From Diphasiastrum complanatum (Eukaryota; Streptophyta; Lycopodiopsida; Lycopodiales; Lycopodiaceae), in assembly GCA_029204225.1 (NCBI GenBank), contig CM055097.1, positions 36,005,446 through 36,069,445 of the forward strand: 64,000 nucleotides of DNA, written 5' to 3'. Each line of letters begins with the position of its first letter. The first letter of the stretch is position 1. The notes beneath the pieces were generated by a model. The model had not been told where the DNA came from. It saw nothing but the letters and a program-made list of their open reading frames with translations, and did not search any database. Shown piece after piece: positions 2,971 to 61,604 of this stretch. Made by a program: the position numbers and the translations under genes.

Positions 2971-3439
2971 CTGATGTAGATTAAAAAAGTGTATGCACCC
3001 CTACTACATAAACCTTGTCAGGCTCAATAGCAGAATCAGTAAAACCCACATGAAAAATATCAAAATGCTCTGGTGGTAGAGCATGTAGCTGGAGATGATT
3101 TGTTGCAGGACTTAGCTTCTATATAGCATGGAGCTCAGCTGGAATTCGATCATTAGATTCTTACCCCCACCCCCCCTCCCCCAATTTTTTTAAGAAGTTT
3201 ATTATTTAACACACCCTCCCATTCTCTTCTTCCAATACTAATTAATGAAAAAAAAATTTCTATTTCTTTGTAGATGTTTATTTTAAAAAAATTTGCCCTA
3301 AAAGTTTTTGGGCAGATTTTTACGTAACGTAAATGTACACATGTACTTTTATTATTGATTCAAAAAAAGCTTTCAAGATTGAAAAAAAATAAAAAGCATC
3401 TTTACAAAGGATCTTTTTTTATTTTGGAATTCCTCTAAT
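2971..3439. other. AT-rich non-coding stretch
   Basis: Homopolymer-rich sequence (runs of A, T and C) between the integrase and gag remnants. I see no gene, LTR end or repeat unit; it may be the eroded pol region. Confidence 0.5.
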
Positions 3440-4990
3440 ATAGGTATTCGTGGTATGCCATAACTTGACGACTTTCCTCAACAGTCAATATCATAGATTG
3501 AGGACAAGGCTTTGTCATTGTAGGCACTGCTGCATTGTGGAACAAAGAGAGTTTGGTTGAATCTTGCTCGTTGAGGACAATCATTAACCTTAGTCTTCCC
3601 TTGATCATTGCACTTCCTCGTTGAAGGCCGCGTGATTGCACTTTCCTTTGGATCTTGTATTGAATTGCCTTCTCGTCGCTCCGTTGACACAGATTCCTCG
3701 AGAGATTCATCACTAAGAAATCTTTGTAATGATTGCGCCAAGAGACTTGGTAAAATCCGCTGGACTTTGTCGGCTGCCAATTTCTTGACTTCCTTAGTTA
3801 CCATTGGCTTAATAGATTCTACTAGCTCTGTCTTTTGTGATGTTGATGTTGTTTGTCTACTCGAGGGTATCTCTGTGTATTTTGGGACTGTTGTCAGATT
3901 GTCTTCTTCGTCACTCGCTTCATAACCCGGTGGCACTAAGATTTTTCTTTTATAGTGCGTTCGAGGTAGAAGGGTCACCACAGATGCATGTCGGTTTACA
4001 TAGGCCAAATGTCTCCTGGCTATTTGTGAATTTCTCATCGGGCAATCTCGGCATGGATTGATTAACTCCGCATTGTGAACACGAGGGATCAAATGTTGAT
4101 GGATCCCCTCAATGTGGACATTCAGCATGGCGGTGTTTCCCTCCACCATGGCATCTTACCGAGTGCAATACATCATCGTCTCTAAGTTGATAGGCATACA
4201 CTAGTAATAGATTCCCCTTAGAATCTTCCACAAAGTAGACTGGTAGGCTGTTATGGTCCTCACTCCATTGAGTTCGGTGACATGCAAGAGGATATAACCA
4301 AAACTTCTACCTTGCCACTGGTTGTTGAAGAAGCTCGTGATTTAGATGGATTTATCTAACATCCATCCTTCAGATAAGCTCCTTGTTGGCTTGATTATGC
4401 TTCTGACCGTTGAACCGCTGGATCTGGCTGTCGGGCCTTCTGCTCCACCTTTGGTTCATGTCGAGGATTTTGATTGGACATCTTGCAGTCGGATGATTTC
4501 CAAAGCAATATGTACATTCGTCCTTCTTAAGCAAATATATCGTGCGAGCATCAGCTTGAGGACGGCCTGAACTTGAAGTGCAAGGTTCTTGATCTTCCGC
4601 TGCACTTGATCTACTTGACTTTGCTACACTTAGTCGCCTTGCATGGGGTTCCATTCTTGTTGGATCATCGCTCATTGTTACCTCTTGTTCCTCTGATTTC
4701 CCATCTAATGATTCAGCACTGTGATAGGGAGAATCCGTCATCCCATGTTGCAGTTCATCATGGCAGCATCCTTACAAAGTTGTGCAGGTGACGCATAAGA
4801 TGCGAATTCTGCGATACTAGATCTGATTTTTTTTGGGCAGTCCAGCATAGTATTTTGCCATGACGATCCGTTTAGGAATCGGTGGATTACAATCCTTCAC
4901 TAAATGGAAGATCTGATAGGTGTAGTCTCAGATTGTTTCATCAGGAAACTTTTTTAGTTTAGATAATCCTACAATGGTGGTCTCCATAGT
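3440..4990 (-). pseudogene. Gag-like zinc-knuckle polyprotein, copy A
   Basis: Read on the minus strand, a capsid-like stretch (ending AKYYAGLPKK, near 4840-4990, with a TGA where Trp fits) is followed by an acidic Ser-rich linker, a knuckle CTYCFGNHPTARC (4478-4516), a CRDC-containing cysteine cluster and the block RKILVPPGYEASDEED. The same order recurs at 25265-26560 (copy B) and 61960-62602 (copy C), so this is a repeated family. The first knuckle is CX2CX3HX4C, one residue shorter than the usual retroviral CX2CX4HX4C. Several frameshifts and a ~110-bp deletion relative to copy B near 3530 show decay. The identity as Ty3-type gag is inferred from position and neighbours. Confidence 0.7.
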
Positions 4991-5416
4991 TCAGCACTAG
5001 AATGTGGCAAAGTAGCCGGTTGGTGGATTGCTTCAGTGATTGTGCAATGGTGAAGATGTTCCAACTTTTCCTTTTTTTTGAGTGAGAAGAAGAAGAAGAA
5101 GAAAAAGATAAAAGAGTAAGTAAAAAGATTGATCAGTATGGATTGAAAAGTTAAATGAATTTAACAGGTGAGAGAGTGGATGGAAGATTGAATGGAGATG
5201 GACAAGAAAAATGAAAATGAAGGATGGATGGTAACTGATATGGAGGCCACTCACCAAAGAGGCTTGGGCTAAAAAAAAAAATTATTGTATTTTTTTTTTG
5301 TAAAGCTTACGATTTTTTTTTTACTCTTCTCTTATGGTCTTTTTTTTTTCTCTTTCCTTCTACGATTTTTTTTTCCCTCTTACGACTTTTTTTTTTTTTT
5401 TTGGGGGAGGGGAGGA

Positions 5417-32249: not shown

Positions 32250-33555
32250 AACATTTAGAGATTGTACACATTGAGCAAAAAACTGTAACTCGTCTGTATT
32301 ATCAAAATCGAGTATACATTAATAATTTTTTTAAGTGTTATCTTTTTTCCAAATTAGCACGTCAGTGTGAGAGAGGAGTTCTCTTTCATGAATGGACTAG
32401 CTAATGCTAGAACTATATTATTTTCTTGATACGCACCTCACTTAGTGTTACGTTCAAGACGCTCTTCTATGCATGTCTATGCAATACATATATCATACTA
32501 GATTAGATTACAAGATTTGATTAGCTAAGTTTAAACTAAACATCCATTTAACTACGTCTTTGTTAACATTGTATGACGACGGTGGATCGTGATAATTTAA
32601 AAACTTCACGCTTGAGTAGCTGAGGTCCAATAGTTCGTCCATGCCCGATAGTTCGTCTGTAATCCGACTAGTTCGAAAAATCTATAAGGAAAGATAGAAA
32701 AATACTAAAGCTTTGAAGAAAGTAATAACTCACTATCTAACATGATGACCAAAAAAAAAAGAAATGACTTGAAGACCCATTTTTTTTTTAAATTTATTAA
32801 ATTTTTTTAAAAAGTATTTAAATTTAAAATGCTTCAAATAAATATATTATAATAATAAAAAAATACTGTATTTTGCAAGAAAATAATTTAGCTACAAAAA
32901 TTTGGTCAATAGATTTTTATAAATAACTTAAAATTAGCTTATATTAAATAATAATACTATTTAAAATAAAATCATTAGATACACAACCACTGAAATACCT
33001 AAAAAATATTTTTTGCTTACTAAAAACAACAGTTTTAGTTTTTTGTTTTTGAAATTTTAAAAGTTATATAAATTACAATTTTTGTATTGAAAAAAATATT
33101 TCTAAAATTATATTAAAAATTTGAATCAATATTTTTTAAAATTTAAAAATTTTGAAAATCTTTACTTACACCCATGTAAGTTTATTAGATATTTAAACAT
33201 TAAATAAACACAATTATTTTACAATAATCGAGATTAAATTATTTGTGATAATATTTAAATCACCCTGAAAAAAATATAATTTTTTTTTCATTTTCAATAA
33301 TTTTTAACAATATTTTTTTTACAAAAAATATTTTAAAAACACATCTAAAATTAAAATATTGTAAACTTGACAAATCATTACAATTTTAATTTTTGGTAAT
33401 AATTATCGATGTTAAAATTTTTAAAATATTTCAAATTTCAAATTTTAAATCGTTAAGAAATAAATTTAAAAATATTAAATCAATAAAAGAGAATTCAAAA
33501 CACAATACATCAAAAAATATAAACACAATTATTCTTTAGAACAAAAGAGAATTTT
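32250..33555. other. Very AT-rich intergenic DNA
   Basis: From about 32740 to 33550 almost only A/T with A- and T-runs. No gene or repeat unit recognised. It forms the 3' flank of the methyltransferase gene. Confidence 0.7.
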
Positions 33556-36500
33556 TTATTCCCAAAAATCATCGATGTCATTTACATCTTTTTCTTTTGT
33601 TTTTTCTTGAGTGGCCACTGTACTATCAAGTGGCACCTCTTCTACAATTTTCTCGACTACAGTTACTACATTGTAATCTTGAACCAAGACATCAACAAAT
33701 TCTCCTGTGTCACCTACTTTTCCGCTAGTAGGAGGTTGAGGTTCCTTGGACAAGGGAATTATTGTATCCTCGCTGTCCAAACTCTTTCCCACCATAGATA
33801 AATTGAAAGAGATTTCATTCTCGTTTTTATAAAATCAACTAAATTAGTATCTAAATCTACTGCAACAACATGTCTGCCTTTCTGAACAGCACATGCGCTC
33901 GTAGTGTCGCTACCGCTAAATAAATCTAAAACCTAATCAGCTGGGTGAGAAAAAATATCAATCAAATGATTAATTAATTGTTGTGGCTTTTGGTAGAGAC
34001 AAGCCACGGAACCCGTCATTGGATTTTTTAATTTCTTTGTCCCAGCTGGATACTAAAACAAGTTTTCAAAATTTGTCAGTCCGGAAGTGTTATAATACAG
34101 CATCGAACGTTTGCCATCCAAAGAATAATAATCGATGGTTATGTATTCTATTTCATTACAAAGTCGAGCTCCTCCCGAGTTCCTGACATTGGGCTTGTAC
34201 CTGACATGGAACATTACAAGTAAAATCAAATTAAAATTTTAATTTTAAAATAAAAAATTTAAAATAAAATTATGAATTAAAATATGAATTGATAATTCAG
34301 GAACAAAGAACTTACCACACAACATTCTCAATTCCTACATGATAGAAAGTTAGTAGAGCTTTCTGTACTGATGTTGACTGCCAAGAAGAATGAAAAATAA
34401 CAACTCTCCAAATTGGAGAAGTTGTGACTTCAAAAAAGCCCTGCATAAAACTATGGATTTTAGTGAATTTGAAAGGAGTATCATCATTTAATGATTTTTT
34501 CATCTAAAATTCATATAGTATATCAGCGATGCAGAGTGTATAAGGCCTTTTTCTTAAAAATTTTAAAATTTCTCTACAGTCGCCCTCCTCAACAGAGTAA
34601 AAGCATGGTTGATCATTGACACTTTTGGGAAGGTAGGTCTCTAATGGATCCTCCTCCGCAATGGTCTGACCCCGTGCCAATCTCTCCCTATCTTTTTTTT
34701 CTACTTTTGCTTTCAGAATATGTCTCGTGAATTGCTCTGGAAGAATTTTGATTTTTTTGTCTTCGAGAGACTGAAAAGGAAAAAGCTAAGTTTAGCATGG
34801 GAGACAAAAAATATAAAATAGAATAGGAGACTTAACTTATCAAAAAAAATTAATTAAATAAATAAAAAGCTATGCTTAGCATAGGAGACATAGAATATAG
34901 AAAAGAAACAATTAATAAGCACATATGTTAAGCATGGGTGAAAGAAATATCATGTCTCTAAACAAAATAAAAAATGGACTCAGGGCTTCATTTCGGCTAC
35001 TCAGAGGATAAAGCCTTTGGCACTCATCGAAATCTTGACAATTTAACCCTGTCACAAGGGCTTCTTGAACTTTCATAGATAATTTGTGCCTACATTTAAA
35101 AAATATAATTGTTAAAAATCCAACCAAATTATGAAAAATATTTTATTAAAAAAGGTAACATGAAAATAAATATTTAAATTATGATTATTACCTCTGAAAT
35201 TTTTTTTTCCATTTCTGCCAAGGAAAGTTGAGCATCGACAACTCTTGAAAGAACACTTATTATTAGCTCTGAAGAGCTAATCCCTTGCATATTCTTCCAC
35301 GCTGATATTGTCATTTTAGTAGGGATTGGCTTCAAAGTTTGAGTGCTCACAACCTTTTTCTTTGGACTTTGAGGCACCATGAGCAGGTTGGCCTTTTATT
35401 TGAAAAGTTTCACTTATCAAAAATTTTATCAACAAGGGCCCACACCTGAAATAAAAAAAAAATAATTGATAAAAAATTTAACCAATATTAAAATTGAGTC
35501 CAAAATTTTAGTCTGATATAAACAATTTAAAAAGATTATAACATATATTATGACCAGAGCATTCCATGACGAGCATAGCCAAACAGATTACCTAGCCACC
35601 GCGAAAAGCAAGCTGAAAAAATTTATTGTATTTAGTAAAGATCTACGTAGGATTTTTCGAATCAAAAGGTAGGCCTGTCTCTTGAGCACATAGTGCTTTC
35701 AGCTCAAGTTGATTCACATCTCCTACTTTGGAGACTCTCATGTATTCTTTGTGAAAAAAACAAATTCTTTATATCGCGGTCATCTTTATCCGGTAGTCCT
35801 GATCAATATTGTGGTTCCAAGCCAATAATTTCGCTTCTTCCACTGTCAGCCCAACAAATTTAATGGCACTCACAGTTCGAAAGCTTGAGATATGGGAATA
35901 TTCTTGAGATAATTGTTTTCGAGCTTGTAAACTGTGTATCCCCCCAAGAACAAAAAAATGATATGAATCTAATAAAGAAAAATCAAAATTTGCAACGTCT
36001 TTGCATTCGTTGGGATCAACCAAAACAACAAAAGGAGTAACTATGGCCTGTGTATGATCTTTAAATTTTATTTTTAAATTATGTACATATGTTTCATTAG
36101 GCTCTCTAACTTCCATTGGCATGTCTCCTGTTATTGGGTCTACAAGTGGCCTATCACACTAATTTATGTCTAAAATTAAAGTTGTTTCTTTTATTTTTTT
36201 TGTTTTATGGATATCCTCTCTTAATTTGGCAAGTTCAGAGCTGTCTTGTAGTGGGCAGATGGATGCACCAGGTAGCGACAAAGATGGTTCGGTAGCGACT
36301 TTTTTGCTTTCAACAGAAGGGATGGACTTATGGCGATGTGTAGCCATGGTCTTTGGGAGTGACTTAGGTCTAGTGGGCGAAGTCTCAGAAATATTATGAG
36401 ATCCTTTATTTTTTGGAATGAGGGACGGCTACGGTTTCATCGTCAACATTTTTAGAGGTCGGCTTAGTGACCTGAGCAGTGGTAGAAGCGGGCTTCCTAG

Positions 36501-37083
36501 GTCCAATAGATACACCTTTTGAACTCCGTAATGAATAGACCGGATCTTTTCTCTCAGCAATAGTAGCTAAAACCACTTTTAGGCATTGCTTCATGCTCTG
36601 AACAGAAACAAAAATCAAGTTTAAAATATAATGACGGAAAGCTTAAATCTAAAAGTTTAAATAATTTTATATCTAATAACAACTATGCTATGCATGAAAC
36701 AAACATGATTAAAAATATATTTTATAATTACTCACCAAAGTAACTAGAGCTTTATTAAAATAGGCTTTGATGGCCTCGTCCTGACAAAGTCGAATCTTTA
36801 TCATAGTCTCGTTCAGAATGAAAATAGAACGAGACTTATCCGTCCCCTTTACAAATATATTCACAAAACCTTCTTCTTGATCGTAATCTGGTTGATCAAC
36901 AAGCAATCTTCCTTGAACTTTGAATTGCGAGTCTCCTCTGCCAGGCTTCTCAGCTAAATGAATAAAAAGCTCCAAAAGCTTTGTGTTGTTGACCCCTTTG
37001 GTGAAATAGTATATGAATTTTTTCTTATCTTTTAACGAAATATCTTGAGGTTTCCCCGAAATTTCAAAAGAAATCCTCGACAT
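33556..37083 (-). pseudogene. ParB-like domain plus amino-type DNA methyltransferase, multi-exon
   Basis: Minus-strand gene from ATG 37083 (MSRISFEISGKPQDISL) to TAA near 33556 (DDFWE). Introns include 36734-36603 (TTTG|GTGAGT ... TTCAG) and others with GTAATA, GTAAGT donors. After a Ser/Pro linker comes FFVLGGIHSLQARKQL, like the GxxR-x-A box of ParB/sulfiredoxin-fold domains (about 35910-35955), then helical KKVVSTQTLKPIPTKM. The methyltransferase has IADILYEF (motif IV position, family D-P-P-Y; near 34502-34530), then YKPNVRNSGGARL, and QKPQQLINHLIDIFSHPAD-stop-VLDLFSGSDTT (motif I, near 33900), GRHVVAVDLDT. The order IV before I is that of beta-class N4/N6 methyltransferases. At least seven in-frame TAA/TAG codons and two or three frameshifts indicate a pseudogene. 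Confidence 0.72.
34869..34889. repeat. Copy of the palindrome inside an intron
   Basis: CTATGCTTAGCATAGG-type palindrome; partial copies near 34790 and 34925. They lie between exons of the methyltransferase gene and match the array at 37272-38331. Confidence 0.6.
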
Positions 37084-37271
37084 TTCGAAAATTAACAAAG
37101 ACAATTGATAATTTGCTCGCTATCTTAATGGAAATGCTGAAAACTTTAATAAAACAAGCCATTTTTGTGAGAAAAAATTAAAAAACAAAACTACAAATTC
37201 AACATATTTTTTTACTTAAACATCCCAAAAGGATCACTTTTCTGAGACAAAGCATTGTAAAACAAGAAAAC

Positions 37272-37697
37272 AACCTATGCTAAGCATAGGTTGTGGTCGA
37301 GTCCTTACTAACAACTTATGCTTAGCATAGGATGAAGGCATGATTTTTCAATTCTAACCTCCTTTCGACCTATGCTGAGCATAGCTTTCATCTCTAATCC
37401 TGTTCCAACCTATGCTCAACATAGATTAGCAAGCAAATTGCGAAGACATCCTATGCTCAGCATAGGTCATTACTAGCGCAATCTTGTCCAACCTATGCTG
37501 AGCATAGGATGTCTTCGCTATTTGCTTGCTAACCTATGCTAAGCATAGGTTGGAAGAGGAATCCTATGCTGAGCATAGGATTTGCTAAGTCGGAATCCTA
37601 GGTTGAGCATAGGTTATTACTAAGGACCCGAGCACAACCTATGCTCAGCATAGGTTAAGGAGAGGACTGGTGCAGGCACCCATGCTGAGCATAGGTT
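37272..37697. repeat. Helically phased palindrome array between divergent genes
   Basis: Eleven copies of the palindrome ACCTATGCTNAGCATAGGT (outer bases often A/T) start at 37272, 37313, 37367, 37407, 37448, 37490, 37531, 37561, 37595, 37636 and 37678. Most steps are 40-42 bp, about four helical turns. Weaker copies are at 37762, 38242 and 38310, the last just upstream of the DUF7869-like coding region. The array fills the space upstream of the ParB-like/methyltransferase gene. An array of symmetric sites suggests cooperative binding by a dimeric protein; whether that is the ParB-like product is inference. Confidence 0.88.
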
Positions 37698-38065
37698 ACC
37701 CATGTTGCAAGAAGATGAATACAAATTAAAATATGAATATTTTCTAATGCAAGAATTTATTACCCATGCTAAGCATAGAACAAAGGTAGAAAATGACAAT
37801 AATCTTACTGTCAAAAAATCTGGAAGCGAGAACGTATGCGAAATCTTATAGAAAGCCATGACTTGGTCGTAGCGATTGCTCTGGCAGCATGTGGGCTTCT
37901 GCATTTGCAAATGAGGTGAGTTATGCTTGGACTATGGTCCTTAAATAAATTTTTTTTCGAGACCCTCGTCTCACACCAGTCCTCTAGCTTACTTCGGGAC
38001 CAAGTTGTCGCGACTCACCTCACCCCACGTCGACCTCGAGTATTAGCCCGGACAGTCCAAACCTA

Positions 38066-38101
38066 GCCCTAACCCTAACTCTAAACCTAACCCTAACACT
38101 A
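38066..38101. repeat. Short interstitial telomere-like run
   Basis: About five degenerate CCCTAA/CTAAACC units in the divergent intergenic region. Confidence 0.6.
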
Positions 38102-38352
38102 AGAATGCTGCCAAACAGTATTTAAGACATGGTAGCCACCGAAAATTTTTATTAACCATTTACTTTTTAGGCTTGTTGCTCATTTGTATTTAGTTGGTTT
38201 TTCTGTGTGCGTCTATTGAGGCTTGCATAGGTTTTTCTTTGTTCTATGACCAGCATAGGTTGCAGTTATGTTTGAGGAGCACATTTAGTGTGGTGTTAAC
38301 TATTTGAATGGTTCTATGCTTAGCATAGGTACGTAGTTAAAAAAAAAAATTG

Positions 38353-41222
38353 AAGTTACGATATCAAGTAGTTCTACCTCTTTTATTCCAGTAGTTGTAA
38401 CTCAATATGTTGCAACAAGTGCAACATCTTCATCAAACATTCCCAATGAAAGTTTTTTTTATAAAGCCACTAATGAATCTGAACATATTTTGGTAAACAA
38501 TGTGGCATAGTTATCATTTACCCGTTCATCATCTGAAATTCCTCAAACAAGTACTTTTCAAGAAATGACGTCTGTAACTCAGCTTGTATCAAATATTTCG
38601 ACCTCGTAATCCTCTTCAGATACAGGCTCGGCACAACTAGAACATTGTTCTTTTGAACAAGTTGAATCATTGAGTGATGAGTCAAAAGCTTCAATTCACT
38701 TAGTTACTGATTCTAGTAAATCAACAGATCCACGTAAGTCTATTGATCCGGGACGTTCAAGCTTTTCTCATGTTCGTAGGAGACCTTCTCAAAGTGATGT
38801 TCGTCATGTTAAATCTAAAAGGGCTATATTTGTTGAAATTTTAGAGCCTTCTGAGGGTCCAAAACATCCTGGGGTTGGAGCCAGAATTCCCAGTCATGAA
38901 ATTCCAACACCTTCTCAACCAGTTCAAACACCTACTAGTGTCATAGGTTCAATTTATAGATCAGACTCCAAACAAAAAGAAAAATACAAGAGAGACTTGA
39001 GATCCTCACTTGATTTAACGAATCGTCAAAAACAGTTGATTACAAAATCTGATATTCGAAATGTACGGAATATTATTTGCTGCTCATCCTGTTGTTGCAA
39101 AAGCTGAATATCAGAGAGATTGAAGAATTAAGATCAAACTTCTTTTTACGAAGTAAGGATGAGAGAAATTACTATTTGTGTGCAACAGTGAGGCCGGACA
39201 AAAATTCATTTTCGTATTTTTTAAATGCTTTGGAAGTTTGTCGCAAAGCTTACAAAGCAGTTCATGCAATCAGAAACTCACGGTTTCAACGAATGCATGC
39301 ACGACTTCAGAAAGACCCAACATTACGGGGATTTTTACAGGGTCGAACTGTTTTTCCAGAAATTTTACAAAATTAGAAATATTTTCTACGTACAAAGAGT
39401 TTGCAAAAACAAAAAAATGTTCCGTATTTGAGTTTCTCATATTTTCCTAGAATTTGGAAAAGAGATTTTGGATTGGTAAAGATTCCCAAAAAATCACGAA
39501 TGACAGTATGCTCCACTTGCGAGTTGTTAAAGTCTGCAAAACAACTTACAAAGACCAATGACGAGAAAGGTAAATATTAATCAAATTTGTCATTCATTTT
39601 AATACTCTCTGTTCTGAAAAAATTTATGTTGCAGTCTTTTTGAACACCATTATGGTATGATCTTTATTTTATTAAATAAGTGAATCATTGTATTTTCAGT
39701 GAATGCTACAAAAGCTCTTTAACTGCACAGAGATCAACAAACAGTTGAAAGACAAAAGTTGGCCAAGCATCGAAAGAAATGTTTGGAATGTCCACAAAAA
39801 TATCTGGGACTTGTTATTGATGGCATGGATCAGAAGAAAACAATGTTGTCTCATTTTGTCAGAGTGCCCAAAAATTTGAACGAGGCAGATTTTATTCAAG
39901 TTCATCTCGTTGAAGCACTTGTGTTTGATGGCACTTTGGAGTCCAAGGTCTTTTTTAATTATCCCAATGTTCGAAATGATCCAAATTTGATGATCATCAT
40001 TGTACATAAGATAATTTGCGAATTTGGTGAAAATCTTCTAGAAATACTTTATTTGCAGATTGACAACACTGCTAGGGAAAATAAAAATCAAACTGTTTTG
40101 GCATACTTGTCTATGCTAGTGGATAATTTTTTTTTCAAAAAAGTAAAAATAGGATTTTTGTTGGTAGGACATACCCACGATCAAATTGATCAAATGTTTA
40201 GTTGCCTTTCTAAGAGGTTGAGATGCAAGAAAGCATTTTCATTACCAGTGCTTCAAAGCATTGTTGAGGAATCGTATGTGCCAAAGCCAAACGTGTCATT
40301 AATCATACACACATATGATTTTCATGATTATGTTAAGGCGTCCAACGAAACATAACGATGCGTAGCTAATATTAATGATATTAGCTTTCAGCACCAGTTT
40401 AAAATCAAATGTAACGGTATTATATTATTATGGGACAAACTATTTTCGAATTCAGTTTCGTGGCTACCTCTTGAAGGAGTTCGATTTTTGCTTACCATTC
40501 CATCGACTCAAATCAAGCTTGTTGTGTTGTCTCCCTTGAAGTCCTTGTTAGAAGAACAAAAGGCGCAAAGAGAACATCGTGAAATTGATCCATTTGCCTC
40601 ATTAAATTTTTTGGAATCAAGTATTCAAGCAGCTTATCATTTTTTTGATGAGTTTGATCAACATTGGTGGATGGACTTTTTTGAGGAACAAAAAATCAGT
40701 TTGGTCAATCTCGAACATACATCAACAACTGATGAATTTCATTGGCCTCATAAATTAGGAACATCAATTACGACTGTCGAATCTTCAGATCTTCCTCGAG
40801 ATAATAATTTCATGCAGCTTGTGCGAGGTGAGGAACGTGAAATTTATGTGGGCTCAAGGAAGAATAGGCAAAGTGTAAAAGCTGCAAAAATGAAATGGCG
40901 CAATGATTTGAATGAAATCCAAATTGGAAGCCTTGTTGCACTTCTAGCTTCAGAAAACAATGAAGGACATCCATTTTGGATTGCCAAAGTACTTGGTTTT
41001 ATTCAAAATAGCAATCAAACAAAAGTATTACGTGTCCATTGGTTGTGCACCACTTCAACGAATGCTTTTTTGAGAAGGTACGAACTCGAAATGTTGCAAG
41101 TAGATACAAAGGGCAAGAGAAAGAGATTGCCAAAAAATCAACCAAGAGTCGACGATTTAAATCTACAGGATGTAGATGTTTTGGCATTTAATTTTGAATT
41201 AACAATGACCAATCATCTATGA
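38353..41222 (+). pseudogene. DUF7869-like gene with RNase H-like and chromatin-reader-like parts
   Basis: A Ser/Thr-rich amino region (SSFSHVRRRPSQSDVRH) leads to a cysteine cluster (CCSSCCCK), EELRSNFFLRSKDERNYYL, VCRKAYKAVHAIRNSRFQRM and CSTCELL. After an intron (39570-39699) the core carries VIDGMDQ, LQIDNTARENKN and GHTHDQIDQMFS, the signature I associate with DUF7869 proteins of mosses, lycophytes, fungi and cnidarians; the acidic positions suggest an RNase H-fold transposase, which is inference. Near 40920-41050, IQIGSLVALLA...PFWIAKVLGF resembles a Tudor/BAH-type reader. In-frame TAG/TAA codons (near 38507, 38607, 39374, 39721, 40353) and a shift near 39100 indicate decay. The frame ends in TGA at 41222; an acidic tail (DSDEEDGTSTSSAENES) in another frame reaches 41481. 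Confidence 0.68.
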
Positions 41223-41481
41223 AAGTCAACAATATCTATATTGAAAGAACGACTTAGATTACTTGAAAAACCATCATCCTCCACTCGTCATCAACAGAGA
41301 AAAGCTGATTTACAAGGTTTTTTTATCAACATTAGACGTGGATTCTGAGGAAGGCATGCCAGTTGACTCTGATGAAGAAGACGGGACTTCCACTTCATCA
41401 GCTGAAAACGAGAGTGTTGAGAATATGTCAAGTTCTAAATTGAGAGGCATCAGTGAAAATTCCTTAGAAAATGTACTTTAA

Positions 41482-42133
41482 AAAAATGAATGTGCAAATA
41501 TAATTTAAGTTATTTTGTATTTCAATGGGATTTTGAGTTTCAAAAATCATTTGTTCTCTTGAATTATTATTTCTTTTGTAATTATGATGGTTTTATGAAT
41601 TTTGCAACCAAAAACTTGTAGTTCTTTATTTAAAATATGCATTTTTTGGTTTTTTTTAAAAACAAAATTTAGAGATTTATTAAAAAAATCCATGATTTTG
41701 GCCTAAAACTAGGACCATTAAAAAACACCTAAAAAGACTACTCTTTTTCAGGTCAAAGTCCCAAAACAAATGTCATCGTGTTATTTGCAAGTTCCTTTGG
41801 ACTTCTTCCTCTATATTGTAGCTTTCCAACATCAAAGTGAATTACATCGATTGTGTTGGCTCCCATTCACTTATGTTTGATAATTATAAATATGAAATAA
41901 AAAAATGTTGAATAATTTAAATTGTAATCTGAAGAGCATCAATCAATAAATATCCATGATTGCAATAGAGTGCATACGTTTTGATATACTTACAGTTACA
42001 TTTCCGATGATCATGAGGATTGATATCTTGTACTTTTATTTTTGAATAAACATGTTGTACTAAAACTTCTCATATAGAGTGAACTCCAGGACTAAACTTA
42101 AACTCCAGAATTTTTGCTTTCCAATAAGATTTG
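41482..42133. other. AT-rich stretch, no gene seen
   Basis: Between the DUF7869-like gene and the copia C LTR. I looked for inverted ends matching 32.2 kb and saw none. Confidence 0.5.
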
Positions 42134-42745
42134 TGTGAAAGATTTCAGATCCTTAAGATCCAATCTACTTGAATGATCTTTGGTTAGAAAGAGAAATACA
42201 CTACAAATCTCACCAATGTAGAAAAATCAGCATCTACACACAAAATGAGATGCAAACACTAATAGAACTTGATCAAACTTGAATGAAATGAAAATTTATT
42301 GTTGTTGTCCATACAAAACCAACAAGCTACTGTATTTCACACGTGTGGATCCAAAAATAGCAAATATAGATCATTCTACACATAGAATTGCAAGCAATCA
42401 CCAAGATAGTGCACCAATGGATAGTAGAACCCAAGAGAACCATGTATAAGCATGAAATGAGATAGAGAAGAGAGAAGATAGCTCTCTCCACGAGTTACGT
42501 CCTTTTATAGTAGGTCCAAACCCTATTTGGCCACTTGGCTTTCCCACCAAAATGCTAACCCTACTAATTTTGGGTCTAGATTCAATGTACCCAATTATTC
42601 AAATTTGAATCTACTCAAACTCGCATTCTAATTTAGACTAACAAACTTTCAAAAGACAACCTCTAAGTCTAAAACAAGTTTTGGCCTCAAAATGCCAAAT
42701 ATGAAAATATAGCAAAATGTGATGAAACTAGTTGAATCTTTCACA
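42134..42745 (-). repeat. 3' LTR of copia C
   Basis: 612 bp. Contains CACACGTGTG at 42338-42347 and a TATA-like TTTTATAG near 42503. Confidence 0.9.
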
Positions 42746-42825
42746 CTCCCTCTTCAACTAGTTTTAGCATAGACTTTGATAATACTCCAAGTGAAGTCCT
42801 ATGCTTCATGAACAAGTCTGTAATT

Positions 42826-42935
42826 TTAATACTCCATCTCCTTTGCAATGACTTGCTCTCTCACAAAATGTTGCACCTCAATATGCTTGCTCCTAGCATA
42901 GTTTTTGACAATAGAACTTTGATCCATCATAAGAA
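42826..42935 (-). pseudogene. copia C RNase H terminus
   Basis: Minus strand ARSKHIEVQHFVREQVIAKE, the conserved end of copia RNase H, preceded by DQSSIVKN in place of the normal DNQSAI...N block. The upstream ~330 bp (to about 43280) is duplicated at 56975-57335. Confidence 0.8.
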
Positions 42936-43499
42936 TGATCTTCTTCCTAAGAATAGATCTTCTTTCAATGATCATGTAATGTTCAAAATAGAAACAACCA
43001 TAATTGATATAGAGAATAGTGTCCACTTGGGATGCTTCACTATTTCTTACATCAATTTTACATATCAAGATGTAACTAGAACATGAAGAATCAAATAGAA
43101 TGTAAATGAAATAATTCCACCATGCTTCCAACTCTGAATTCTCTGGAAAAATACAACTAACAAACAATAAATGTGAGTGATCAACTTTTGCTTGCATGTC
43201 TCCTCCTCCTTTGTCCTTTGTTGCCTTGTATCCACCATGATACTTCATGAATGAGAGCCTCCATCTCCATCTTCCAATAAGATGCCATCATCACTTGATG
43301 ACTTGTACCATGAATGAGTGACATAATGAACCTCCAATAACTTCATTTCCATCAGTAAAACCAGCCAAGAATGCTAGTACAAATCCAACATCAAAACAAT
43401 ACTCACCAATGTAGCTAGTTTTTGTGAAGATTATTAAAATATTATCTTCCTATCTCGAGTTTGGGGCCATGTCCATGGTGATTTCCACTAAAATTCATG

Positions 43500-44164
43500 C
43501 TGTATATAAAAGGAGTGTGAATTGAGCACATATCCTTCTAGTGTAGTTCGGATTCAAGTTAGATAGGTTCAATTATGATGACATGAAGATGTTTAGATAG
43601 CATGCAAAGTCTTACTGTATGCATGCAAGCCACATGCAATTAGTGCATGCAACATGCAAAGTAGTTTCAGTGATCTACACATGTCTAGGCAATTTTATGA
43701 GTTGACATGTAGTACATGCAACATACATGCATGCAGTTACACATGTGGATCTATGGTAGGTGAATTAGTTCAGTTAAGTGGACTTTCCATGCAACTCCAC
43801 TGTAGGAATGCGAGTCTCTCTCGTGTAGGAAAAGTTGGGCATGTTTTGCCAAATTGTGAATATTGAGATTTTGGTGTTTTGGACTCATTCTCTCTCTACC
43901 TGAGTTTTCTATGATTGATTTTCTCTCTCTACCCGAGAGCAACCTCTTTTTCCCATACTGAATACTTAGAATTATTTCTGACATTCATTTCTCATAGTGA
44001 AGAGTTAGATTTTTTCATCTGATGTATGTCATTGTGCTCTTGCCTTAGATTTTTCAAGCATACTGTTCTTTGATCAATCTTGTGCAATCACAACACCTCA
44101 GTAAGATCCCGTAGGGTGTGTGGTGAAGTTCACACGTGCTAAAAACTTTACATGGTATCAGAGC
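43500..44164 (+). repeat. Plus-strand LTR 3' part with PBS, nested in copia C
   Basis: A TATA box (TATATAAAAGG at 43503) precedes CATGCA-rich sequence, and AAAACTTTACA is followed by PBS TGGTATCAGAGC at 44153-44164. CACACGTG lies 15 bp before the end. The left LTR boundary was not found (somewhere between 43280 and 43500), so this is a partial call. Confidence 0.55.
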
Positions 44165-44368
44165 TTCATGCTTTGAAGAGGTGAGGGTGTATACATCAGA
44201 TCATCAGTGTTTTTGCTTGCAGGAACTCGGATTTGGGAGAGGGATTCGAACTCGTTGAAAAACAATAAATCTGAGGACCATAAGTGGATCAAATCAAGGC
44301 TGATCTGATCCAGCGGAGCTCTATACAGACAGAGAGCTTACACGTGTGAATTCAGCCCTCATTAAACT

Positions 44369-44659
44369 TCACAGATTTACCATATCTTGACAATTTGCAC
44401 ACATCAAATGCTCAGACATGAGATAGAACAAGTAAAGTAGACTTGAACAACACTTGCTTGCTGCTCCTTTGACCTTACTTGAGTGTTCAATATGCTGCAA
44501 AAACATATCCATAACATCTTTGCCAATTACCTCTTCTTTGATGCTCTTGACTAGCTCCAAATTGCCACCTTCCCTTTCGACTAGTTGAAGCGCTTTGAGA
44601 TCAACTTCTTGATCATCAAATTGACCATCAAAGTTATTGACTTTGTTTTCCAGATCCAT
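44369..44659 (-). CDS. Unrecognised 96-codon frame within copia C
   Basis: Minus strand MDLENKVNNFDGQFDDQEVD then LELVKSIKEEVIGKDVMDMF. It sits where RT should begin but shows no RT motif; it may be captured sequence or part of the nested element. Acidic and helical in character. Confidence 0.25.
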   Translation of the reverse strand: MDLENKVNNFDGQFDDQEVDLKALQLVEREGGNLELVKSIKEEVIGKDVMDMFLQHIEHSSKVKGAASKCCSSLLYLFYLMSEHLMCANCQDMVNL

Positions 44660-46540
44660 TACTTGATTTTACAGCAAGATAACATCCATCCACTTGCATA
44701 GCACCATCTACACAAGAAGATCCTCCAAAAGATGTTCCACTCTTCATAAGAGATTGATACTCAAAATCCATTGCTTGGATCCACTCCTCTTCTTTCCTTG
44801 CTTGAAATATACTTGTAGGCTCATCCAAAGAGGTTAGGAAAACAACATAATCTCCAAAAACTACTTGCTTACCCTTTTGATCATATGTGAGCCTTGAAGG
44901 TACTTGTCTTTCTCTTGATGTTCTCCTTGGCTTTTGACTTGATGAAGGTCCATCATCATCACCATCCAAAGTAGGATCCTTCTCATCAACATGAAGAATG
45001 TTAGATCCATCCACTCTACTATCAATCATGCTTGAAGAAACCTTTGGAATGTTCCCCTCATCAAAAATGACATCTCTACCAACAATCACTTTGTTAGTAG
45101 AAGGAATGTAAACCTTGTAGGCTTTACTCACCTCACTATATCCAACAAAAATACCTCTTCTTGAAGATGGATCCTCCTTGGTCCTATCATCAAGAGTAAT
45201 GTTGACATAGCATGTGCATCCAAAGGGTCTTAAAAAGCTGACACTCGACCTCCTCTTGAATAGCATCTCAAAAGGTGTCCTTCCATCCAAAATAGCACTC
45301 GACCACCTATTGCACAAGAAATTGGCACACAACAAAGCTTGATCCCAAAATGGTTTGTCAAGATTAGCACTCAACCTCATAGCTTTAGCACTTTCACATA
45401 AAGTCCTATTCTTCCTTTCAACCACTCCATTTTGTTGTGGGGTCCTTGATGTTGTATACTCCCTCTTGATCCCATGCTCATCACAAAAGTCCTTGAACTT
45501 GTTAGATATGTACTCAGCACCATTGTCACCTCTCAAGCACTTGATCTTTGTGGAAAATTGGTTCTCCCTTGCATTCTTGAACTTGACAAAGACATCATAC
45601 ACTTCATCCTTGTTCTTTAGTAGATAGATCCAACAGAATCTACTAAAATCATCAATGAATGTTACATACATCTTAGCTCCACTATTGCTAATTGTAGTAA
45701 ATCCATGAATATCCGAATGTACAAGTTGAAAAGGCTTTGTAGATCTAGAAATAGATCTAGTATAAGGTATTCTATGTGACTTAGACAAAGCAAAGACTCA
45801 CAAACATGCTTGACATCACTTAAGGAACTTGGAAGACCAATCACAACCTTCTTCCTTGCCATTACCTCCAATGACTTGAAGTTGAGGTGTCTCATCCTTT
45901 TGTGCCAAACCTCTTGAATAGAAATTTGCTCCCTTGCAACACATCCAACTTGGTTAGCAGTAACACAAGCATCTAGTTTGAACAACTTCCCTTGCCTTTT
46001 ACCATTTCCAATCAAGACATCCTTCCTTTTGATCAAACAAGCATCTCCATTAAACTCTACCTTGAGGCCTTTACTTAGCATTTGACTCACACTAAGCAAA
46101 TTCTTGGTAATAGATGGAATAAACAAGACATCCTCCAAATGAACATTCCTATTTGTAGAGAGAGAAATAGGAATTGTGCCAATCCCTTTGATTGCACACT
46201 CACCACCATTGGCCGTGTAGATCACCCTCTTCTCATCTCCATATGCCAACAAAGAAGTGAAGTACTCTTTGTGAAAGGTCATGTGTGAACCTTCTCCACT
46301 ATCAATCCACCAAGGATCCAGATCTCCATCATTAGCAAGCATACATGAAGACATCACAAAAGCATCATCATTTTCATCTTGAACATCCAAACCATCCTCA
46401 TCAAGAGTAAGATTACCTTGCTTGTCTTCTTGATCTCTCTTCTTCTTGTACCACTTACTTGCAAAGTGTCCTTTGATGCCACAATAGAAGCACTTGAGCT
46501 TTGATCTATCCTTTTTTTGCCACTTGAAGAAGCATCCACT
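44634..46540 (-). pseudogene. copia C gag knuckle, protease, integrase
   Basis: From the right: knuckle CFYCGIKGHFASKW (last Cys changed to Trp), protease WWIDSGEGSHMT, GAG-pre-integrase with WHKRMRHLN (usual WHxRLGH), a frameshift near 45790-45840, then integrase with VHSDIHGF, LRGDNGAEY and TPQQNGVVERKNRT, so the D-D-E set is present, then RPFGCTCYVN, FVGYSEVSKAYK and the RT entry EEEWIQAMDFEYQS before rearranged sequence. The integrase part has 380 open codons, the longest intact copia domain in the window. Confidence 0.9.
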
Positions 46541-47063
46541 ATTAGAACTTGATCAAACTTGAATGAGATAAAAATTTACTATTGTTGTCTATACGAAACT
46601 AGCAAGCTACTGTATTTCACATGTGTGGATCCAAAAATAACAAATATAGATCATTCTACACATAGAATTGCAAGCAATCACCAAGATAGTGCACCAATGG
46701 ATAGTAGAACCCAAGAGAACCATGTATAAGCATGAAATGAGATATAGAAGAGAGAAGATAGCTCTCTCCATGAGTTACGTCCTTTTATAGTAGGTGCAAA
46801 CCCTATTTGGCCACTTGGCTTTCCCACCAAAATGCTAACCCTACTAATTTTGGGTCTAGATTCAATGTACCCAATTATTCAAATTTGAATCTACTCAAAC
46901 TCTCATTCTAACTTTCCCACACTTTTAAAAAGTGTTTACTCAAATGAAATTTAGACTAATGAACTTTGAAAAGTCAACCTATGAGTATAAAACAAGTTTT
47001 GGCCTCAATATGCCAAATATGGAAATATAGCAAAATGTGATAAAACTAGTTGAATCTTTCACA
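46539..47063 (-). repeat. 5' LTR of copia C, truncated
   Basis: Aligns with 42259-42745. The palindrome at 42338 reads CACATGTGTG here (46617). Confidence 0.88.
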
Positions 47064-61236: not shown

Positions 61237-61604
61237 ATTCTGGAAATTTTGTCAAGAAATGCTATATATAGCATAAAGTAGGTTTTAATGGCCTTTTTGG
61301 CCGTGTGGGCCGAAGGTACAACCCCATCTTAAACACAATGACAAGTAAAGAGACTAGATTGTAGGCTATCATACACAACCACAGATGACAACAGAAGAGT
61401 TTATGCAAAAAATGGACTGCCAGGTTGTCACATCTTTGGGGTTTTTGAGTACACCTTGGAGCATGTCCAGGTTTGGAATAGCCATAAAATTATGAATCAA
61501 ACTGGAAAACTAGCAAGATGCCATGACACAAAAAGGCTTGCTCAATTTGTTTTTTTCAAGAAAACAAGAAAAAAAACTGAAAAATAGGATGTTGTGTCCG
61601 TGAT

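Follow-up and report, generated by a model that had tools for sequence, protein, structure and literature searches.

Phased 19-bp palindromes between the divergent genes of a broken plant transposon: a candidate self-recognition array

Introduction

What would a series of near-identical short palindromes be doing between two divergent genes of a land plant? The question is raised by a 64,000-nucleotide stretch of the Diphasiastrum complanatum (Lycopodiaceae) genome (assembly GCA_029204225.1, contig CM055097.1, positions 36,005,446 to 36,069,445), here called the window. A sequence-only reading of the window had described eleven palindromes at steps of 41-42 bp, with weaker ones at some distance, in the promoter region of a gene with a ParB-like domain. 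It had suggested a site of partition, regulation or transposition recognized by the neighbouring gene product, comparable to plasmid iterons, parS clusters or subterminal transposase sites. Here we describe the array, the two genes, the element they belong to and its relatives, and weigh the proteins that might bind the sites.

Results

The palindrome array in the window

The 19-mer ACCTATGCTNAGCATAGGT was retrieved 15 times in the 64-kb window with up to three mismatches, against 0.05 occurrences expected, and 0 of 100 shuffles reached 15. Eleven of these odd 19-bp palindromes span 37273-37696, starting at 37273, 37314, 37368, 37408, 37449, 37491, 37532, 37562, 37596, 37637 and 37678; three are perfect, four have one mismatch, three have two and one has three. 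With a twelfth copy starting at 37762 they form the main array (37273..37780, strandless). The other three occurrences are an outlying site at 38312..38330 (16/18) and two sites at 34868..34886 (16/18) and 34921..34939 (15/18), within an inferred intron of the left gene. A further search added a weak outlying site at 38242..38260 (14/18) and another at 34784..34802 (13/18), just upstream of a likely splice acceptor of that same intron; the latter is near chance if taken alone, about two places being expected at the 13/18 level and the unrelated place 56959 also scoring 13. With a weight matrix built from 15 of these sites, only the 17 places named here exceeded the cut-off across the whole window. 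The eleven palindromes of the sequence-only reading and its three weaker ones are borne out by these counts, the last of them lying at 38312. Three of its 14 coordinates were exact, ten were too low by 1 bp and one by 2 bp, and the three sites at 34784-34939 had been missed.

Consecutive main sites are spaced by 41, 54, 40, 41, 42, 41, 30, 34, 41 and 41 bp, so the proposed step of 41-42 bp describes most of the array (7 of 10 spacings at 40-42 bp) and fails at 54, 30 and 34. Helical phasing of the 12 sites gave R 0.88 at 10.4 bp. When the 41-bp steps are held fixed, the four odd spacings of the window add little phasing (marginal, p 0.04), and the strong phasing result given below needs the spacings of the relatives.

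Pairwise identity in the window is 85% among sites and 23%, that is chance, at spacer bases 4-11. The 17 sites vary freely in their centre base (4 T, 4 A, 5 G and 4 C) and are conserved in both arms, as expected for the binding site of a dimer. The spacers form four mirror pairs; in three of them the partners are inverted copies of one another and in the fourth they are not, which makes the array also a large interrupted palindrome, with an inner mirror repeat at 37398..37560 (arms 37398-37467 and 37491-37560, 93% complementary) and an outer one at 37272..37656 (arms 37272-37333 and 37595-37656, 85% complementary), neither assigned to a strand. Mirror copies aside, similarity has been preserved in the sites only.

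The two divergent genes

The left gene (33556..37084, minus strand; exon limits approximate) is broken by stops and frameshifts. It comprises an unknown N-terminal domain, a ParB-like segment and an N6/N4 DNA methyltransferase. The C-terminal segment of the methyltransferase (33762..33932, minus strand), which carries a SAM-binding motif beginning VLDLFSGS, matched its profile with E 1.5e-4 on its own, short of Pfam's cut-off, and with E 1.3e-11 when joined with its neighbours (PF01555); the corresponding gene of a relative, L006 (minus strand, about 4239-1014), matched PF01555 with E 4.1e-8. In both copies DNA methylase alone among the Pfam families matches the left gene significantly. The ParB-like segment (35772..36158, minus strand), with the motif GGIHSLQA, is 49% identical to its counterparts in L006 and L009, and a GGxHS..A motif is conserved in it. 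The ParB-like label given earlier keeps the backing of motif and architecture, but no ParB match was retrieved with the profiles of Pfam, NCBIfam or PHROGs, and an hhalign comparison with SopB of N15, a weak one (one ParB, five rows), found nothing. A single-sequence structure model of the segment was unusable (pLDDT 36.5). Among about 5.8 billion proteins, none of the 7,992 candidates with the most words in common with the left gene was a homologue at E <=0.001, and none of 534 candidates scored in a second protein search had E <=1. Likewise, neither the left-gene segment nor its alignment retrieved a relative from viral contigs, and neither tblastn against phages nor sequence searches of the PDB, each with the ParB-like segment and the L006 left-gene frame, gave a match.

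The right gene (38337..41481, plus strand; limits approximate, start codon provisional) is also broken. It contains a DUF7869 domain at 39723..40352 on the plus strand (PF25273, E 2e-42), the only significant Pfam match in the window pieces and in the L006 frame, neither of which matched a MULE transposase. The predicted structure of DUF7869 has an RNase-H-like (RNase-H/DDE) catalytic fold. Three acidic residues, each present in at least 90% of the alignment, stand where a DDE/DDD transposase would have them: just after strand 1 (D36), at the end of strand 4 (D114) and in the helix after strand 5 (D156), as placed by eye without superposed active sites. In Foldseek the best rows were viral terminase nucleases, not transposases; the ranking of the fold with transposases comes from a second structural aligner, and sequence identity in the rows of the SETMAR/Hsmar1 and Mos1 mariner transposases and of retroviral integrases is 5-16%. 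On these predicted structures, DUF7869 is a probable transposase fold, and we refer to the right gene as the transposase. A homologue search with it found 91 proteins, and its alignment retrieved no relative from viral contigs. A degenerate telomere-like tract (CCTAACCCTAAC...) lies upstream of the gene at 38060-38103.

Relatives and transposon ends

With the transposase alignment as query, 16 loci were retrieved from a prokaryote genome collection of 84,980 species, and eight of them (L003-L010) belong to a single MAG, Trichormus sp., from run ERR2144891. Left genes in these loci match in pieces split by stop-bearing, intron-like stretches, and L006 holds LTR-retrotransposon sequence, so the eight are very probably contaminating eukaryotic host DNA in a cyanobacterial MAG. 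The host would be the fern Azolla: Trichormus azollae is the cyanobiont of Azolla, and PRJEB19522 is the project of an Azolla metagenome paper (PMC5901025), whose entry does not name the run. Coming from one MAG, the eight close relatives are probably copies in one genome. Another contig of the collection, L017, is the L016 contig in a second record and was not counted apart, which leaves seven distinct distant loci.

The DUF7869 gene is present in all eight close loci, and the left gene was also detected in L005, L006, L007, L009 and L010 (tblastn with the window protein, best E 1.2e-76). The methyltransferase is encoded on the strand opposite to the transposase in the window, and the order is divergent in all five relatives with two genes. 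L010 has no intergenic region, jumping from the counterpart of L005 position 1444 to that of 3540.

The two genes of the window form an old, broken DNA transposon. A complete copy is found in L006, with a length of 7,722 bp and terminal inverted repeats whose outer ends lie at 392 and 8113 and that are alike at 25 of 32 bases (hand count of the printed alignment). TAACAA flanks both ends, a 6-bp target duplication, and joining the flanks into an empty site restores one open retroelement frame across it. The right flank encodes integrase domains of that retroelement (PF17921, E 2.1e-23; PF00665, E 7.3e-10), which we label Gypsy, and the left flank gave no Pfam match. L009 and L010 have terminal repeats and no clear target duplication. 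For the window, candidate terminal inverted repeats were detected on the left at 32740..32749 (plus strand, ACATGATGAC) and on the right at 41772..41781 (minus strand, ACACGATGAC), agreeing at 9 of 10 positions and delimiting an element of about 9.0 kb (32740 to 41781). Between 29.0 and 33.56 kb, the site at 32740 is the single partner of ACACGATGAC when no more than one mismatch is allowed. The hexamers that flank the two ends agree at only 4 of 6 positions, and the ends accordingly stay candidates; a third match of the terminal 10-mer, at 61333, must be chance. Adjoining the right end, retrotransposon sequence occupies 42248-47063, with 300-bp direct repeats that are 94% alike and a reading frame encoding integrase and SH3_retrovirus domains, which we label Copia.

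Arrays in the close relatives

A palindrome array lies upstream of the transposase in all seven close loci that retain that region, three of which (L003, L004 and L008) are contigs that start inside the intergenic region and so end before the left gene. It lies between both genes in all four loci in which both are retained and the region is kept (L005, L006, L007 and L009). The tie between array and gene pair, which the sequence-only reading had set as a test, holds in the relatives, and a dispersed satellite is rejected on that ground. The arrays comprise 3 sites in L003, 3 in L004, 10 in L005, 5 in L006, 15 in L007, 4 in L008 and 2 in L009, some of them being cut by a contig end. The distance from array to left-gene start is 189-318 bp (window, L005, L006 and L009), and to the transposase start about 400-620 bp in the seven relatives. 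The window-type array pattern had no match in viral contigs.

The letters of the sites differ between copies. L003 has TCCGATGCAgTGCATCGGA where others have GTCGATGCnnnGCATCGAC; L005 alternates GTCGATGCTAGGCATCGAC with its reverse complement, with other centres in the last two sites; L004, L006 and L009 share GTCGATGC(GGG/CCC)GCATCGAC; L007 has GTCGATGCGCCGCATCGAC, GTCGATACCaGGTATCGAC and mixtures; and L008 has variants of GTCGATGCGgnGCATCGAC. Nevertheless, the 19-bp length and the exact core C.ATGC...GCAT.G recur in some sites of all seven loci and of the window. In L007 the exact core is found in 4 of 15 sites, GTCGATACC being an example without it. No match to the exact core appeared in five shuffles of 122,736 bp, the complete copy L006 has none outside its array, and one match in the distant locus L011 (2929, inside the DUF7869 stretch) was taken as chance. 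Half-site differences track transposase distance over the eight loci (Mantel r 0.86, p 0.004; half-sites chosen by hand), a correlation also expected from shared descent alone.

Spacings cluster near 31, 41-43, 50-52, 62-63 and 72 bp, close to multiples of a step of about 10.35 bp; those of 34 and 54 bp are off phase. Pooled over eight loci, 46 spacings fit best to a period of 10.3-10.45 bp, and with distinct values per locus not one of 5000 jittered sets came up to the value observed. The set leaves out the L007 dyads at 2832 and 2933, which are of another type, and the window sites at 38242, 38312 and in the intron (three). Most spacings amount to 4 or 5 helical turns, depending on the copy. 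Phasing of the sites along the helix, and clustering of the spacing in other copies, had both been anticipated and are found, the latter as whole turns rather than as one fixed step. In L005 and L007 there are also repeats of about 103 bp with two sites each. Two copies of TTACCCTAAACTA occur upstream of the L005 transposase (about 3421-3482).

Palindrome clusters at distant DUF7869 loci

Palindrome clusters were also detected at the distant DUF7869 loci L012, L016/L017 and L018, all on protist-like contigs. In L018, GCGATCAnTGATCGC-like sites occupy six positions, 36-73 bp apart, at 3712-3955; in L016 they are found at 5312-5407 and also at 3900, 6865 and 6912. Both clusters lie on the downstream side of the gene, with spacings that show no clear phase. 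At least two clustered dyads were present in 0 of 40 shuffles for L012, 0 of 40 for L018 and 1 of 40 for L016. No left-gene relative was detected in L012, L016 or L018 by tblastn with E up to 1, on short contigs where a diverged one could be missed, and three L016 frames gave no Pfam match. Of the seven distinct distant loci, three (L011, L014 and L015) are without a cluster, and L013 has only a CAG repeat. The GCGATCAnTGATCGC-like clusters come from distant protist-like contigs in two different aquatic MAGs. In L016 the perfect palindrome CTCGGATGCtGCATCCGAG additionally occurs twice upstream of the DUF7869 frame, at 25-43 and 145-163, 120 bp apart, the first being longer.

Discussion

What might bind the array

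The position of the array, its dyads, their near-whole-turn spacing and site letters that change with the element were all computed, as were the gene pair and the transposon ends of a complete relative. Together, position, dyads, spacing and letters point to a dimeric protein encoded by the element and acting on its own promoter; the identity of that protein and the effect of its binding we infer. With somewhat more confidence than doubt, we read the array as a helically phased cluster of binding sites for such a protein, most likely the ParB-like methyltransferase, serving self-recognition and control of the shared promoter. The array would then act in cis, within the promoter that the two genes of this eukaryotic DNA transposon share. 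A dimer of the element protein, most likely the ParB-like methyltransferase, would bind the 19-bp dyads on one face of the helix, and binding would recruit the methyltransferase to the DNA of its own family. The bound protein may regulate both divergent genes, and would probably methylate or otherwise mark the promoter against host silencing. As far as sequence can suggest, the array would most likely serve to autoregulate the divergent genes, whether or not an N6A/N4C mark is involved. A fuller version is a tentative one that we would not yet bet on: the ParB-like N6A/N4C methyltransferase would bind the phased promoter palindromes, write a non-5mC mark and keep the genes open against plant silencing, with site and protein co-diverging so that each subfamily would mark itself only.

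The clusters at distant DUF7869 loci where the left gene was not found indicate that the transposase, or a third or common factor, may be the binder. Binding by the DUF7869 transposase, or by a complex containing it, would make the array an internal enhancer or an autorepressor of the shared promoter. These clusters speak for it, as does the site changing along with the transposase, but we consider it rather unlikely: transposases usually bind element ends, whereas L006 has no exact core site outside its array; three of the seven distinct distant loci are free of clusters and L013 has a CAG repeat; and the L016 and L018 clusters lie downstream of the gene and are not clearly phased. It is improbable that the sites are operators of a host transcription factor driving or repressing both genes. 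Their place in a divergent promoter and a dyad with a free centre base fit many dimeric factors, but copies from one MAG differ in step with the element (TCCGATGCAgTGCATCGGA in L003, GTCGATGCnnnGCATCGAC in others), which is not expected of a host factor, and two clear sites and one weak site lie inside the inferred intron.

Two further explanations involve no element-encoded binder. That the array works through its structure, as a large hairpin or fold-back that might for example give rise to small RNA or block replication, without a sequence-specific binder, seems more improbable still. In its favour are the mirror repeat of about 385 bp in the window and the folding energy predicted for 395 bases, -221 kcal/mol (RNA parameters, without shuffle control); yet the sites are alike with a free centre while most spacers have drifted to chance, L005 is a regular alternating array and not a single mirror repeat, and helical phasing would not be expected of a hairpin. 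Least credible to us is that a satellite unit was duplicated neutrally, in tandem or inverted, an explanation to which we give very little weight. The two-site repeats of L005 and L007 resemble such a process, but the array occupies the same position in every copy keeping the region, its core is common to divergent elements, and in the window the spacers are unrelated and the spacing is near whole turns.

Comparison with known systems

The sites of ParB (parS) and plasmid iterons are palindromic or phased repeats, and the present array resembles them in lying beside a possible ParB-like gene. It differs in belonging to a plant transposon, and the ParB label is motif-based. Neither ParA (no match among the scanned pieces of the window element and six L006 frames) nor a replication gene was seen in the pieces scanned, and ParABS partition and iterons were rejected as explanations. 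Subterminal transposase sites are also rejected, since the arrays occupy a central place in the promoter common to both genes, and L006 lacks the exact core elsewhere. From the earlier proposals, self-recognition or regulation by an element protein survives as the best reading, and partition does not.

According to the main text of PMC12477816, the giant Ectocarpus transposon Sola1-1_Ec32 carries a ParB-like and N4C/N6A methyltransferase gene on the strand opposite to its transposase. Its authors, who cite algal ParB-like/methyltransferase transposon proteins, propose for proteins of this kind that the transposon encoding them is also the DNA they bind and modify. A ParB-like/methyltransferase gene opposite a transposase is common to both cases. 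However, the transposase there is of the Sola type and here, by Pfam match, DUF7869; Sola1-1_Ec32 is 21.5 kb long, whereas of the elements described here, from land plants, L006 measures 7.7 kb and the window copy about 9.0 kb between its candidate ends. Neither 'palindrom' nor 'subterminal' occurs in the main text of PMC12477816.

A second parallel is VANC of Arabidopsis, which, according to the text of PMC5735166 and PMC10398659, binds short motifs arrayed in the noncoding DNA of its own VANDAL elements and removes silencing. The likeness lies in an accessory protein of the element, in arrays of motifs within noncoding DNA of that element (PMC5735166), and in the divergence of arrays and motifs between related elements (PMC5735166, PMC10398659). 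VANC motifs, in contrast, are of 8-9 bp in tandem repeats (PMC5735166), and those described here are 19-bp dyads near whole turns; the transposase here is DUF7869 and not MULE, and the partner is a methyltransferase. The words 'helical', 'palindrom' and 'spacing' are absent from the text of PMC5735166. By analogy, the present case joins a ParB-like/methyltransferase gene, as in Ectocarpus, to a putatively self-specific array, as in VANC. In the open-access literature searched, no paper naming DUF7869 was found, and no account of such palindrome arrays was found for ParB-methyltransferase transposons or for palindromes with a transposase or a bidirectional promoter.

Implications

To transposons with ParB-like/methyltransferase genes the array offers a concrete candidate target in plants, a 19-bp palindrome repeated near whole turns; in the main text of PMC12477816 the target of such transposon proteins is only proposed. 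It makes testable whether land plants have sequence-specific writers of 6mA or 4mC, and whether self-recognizing anti-silencing evolved more than once in transposons. If the reading is true, this would be a eukaryotic transposon family with its own bacterial-style epigenetic address.
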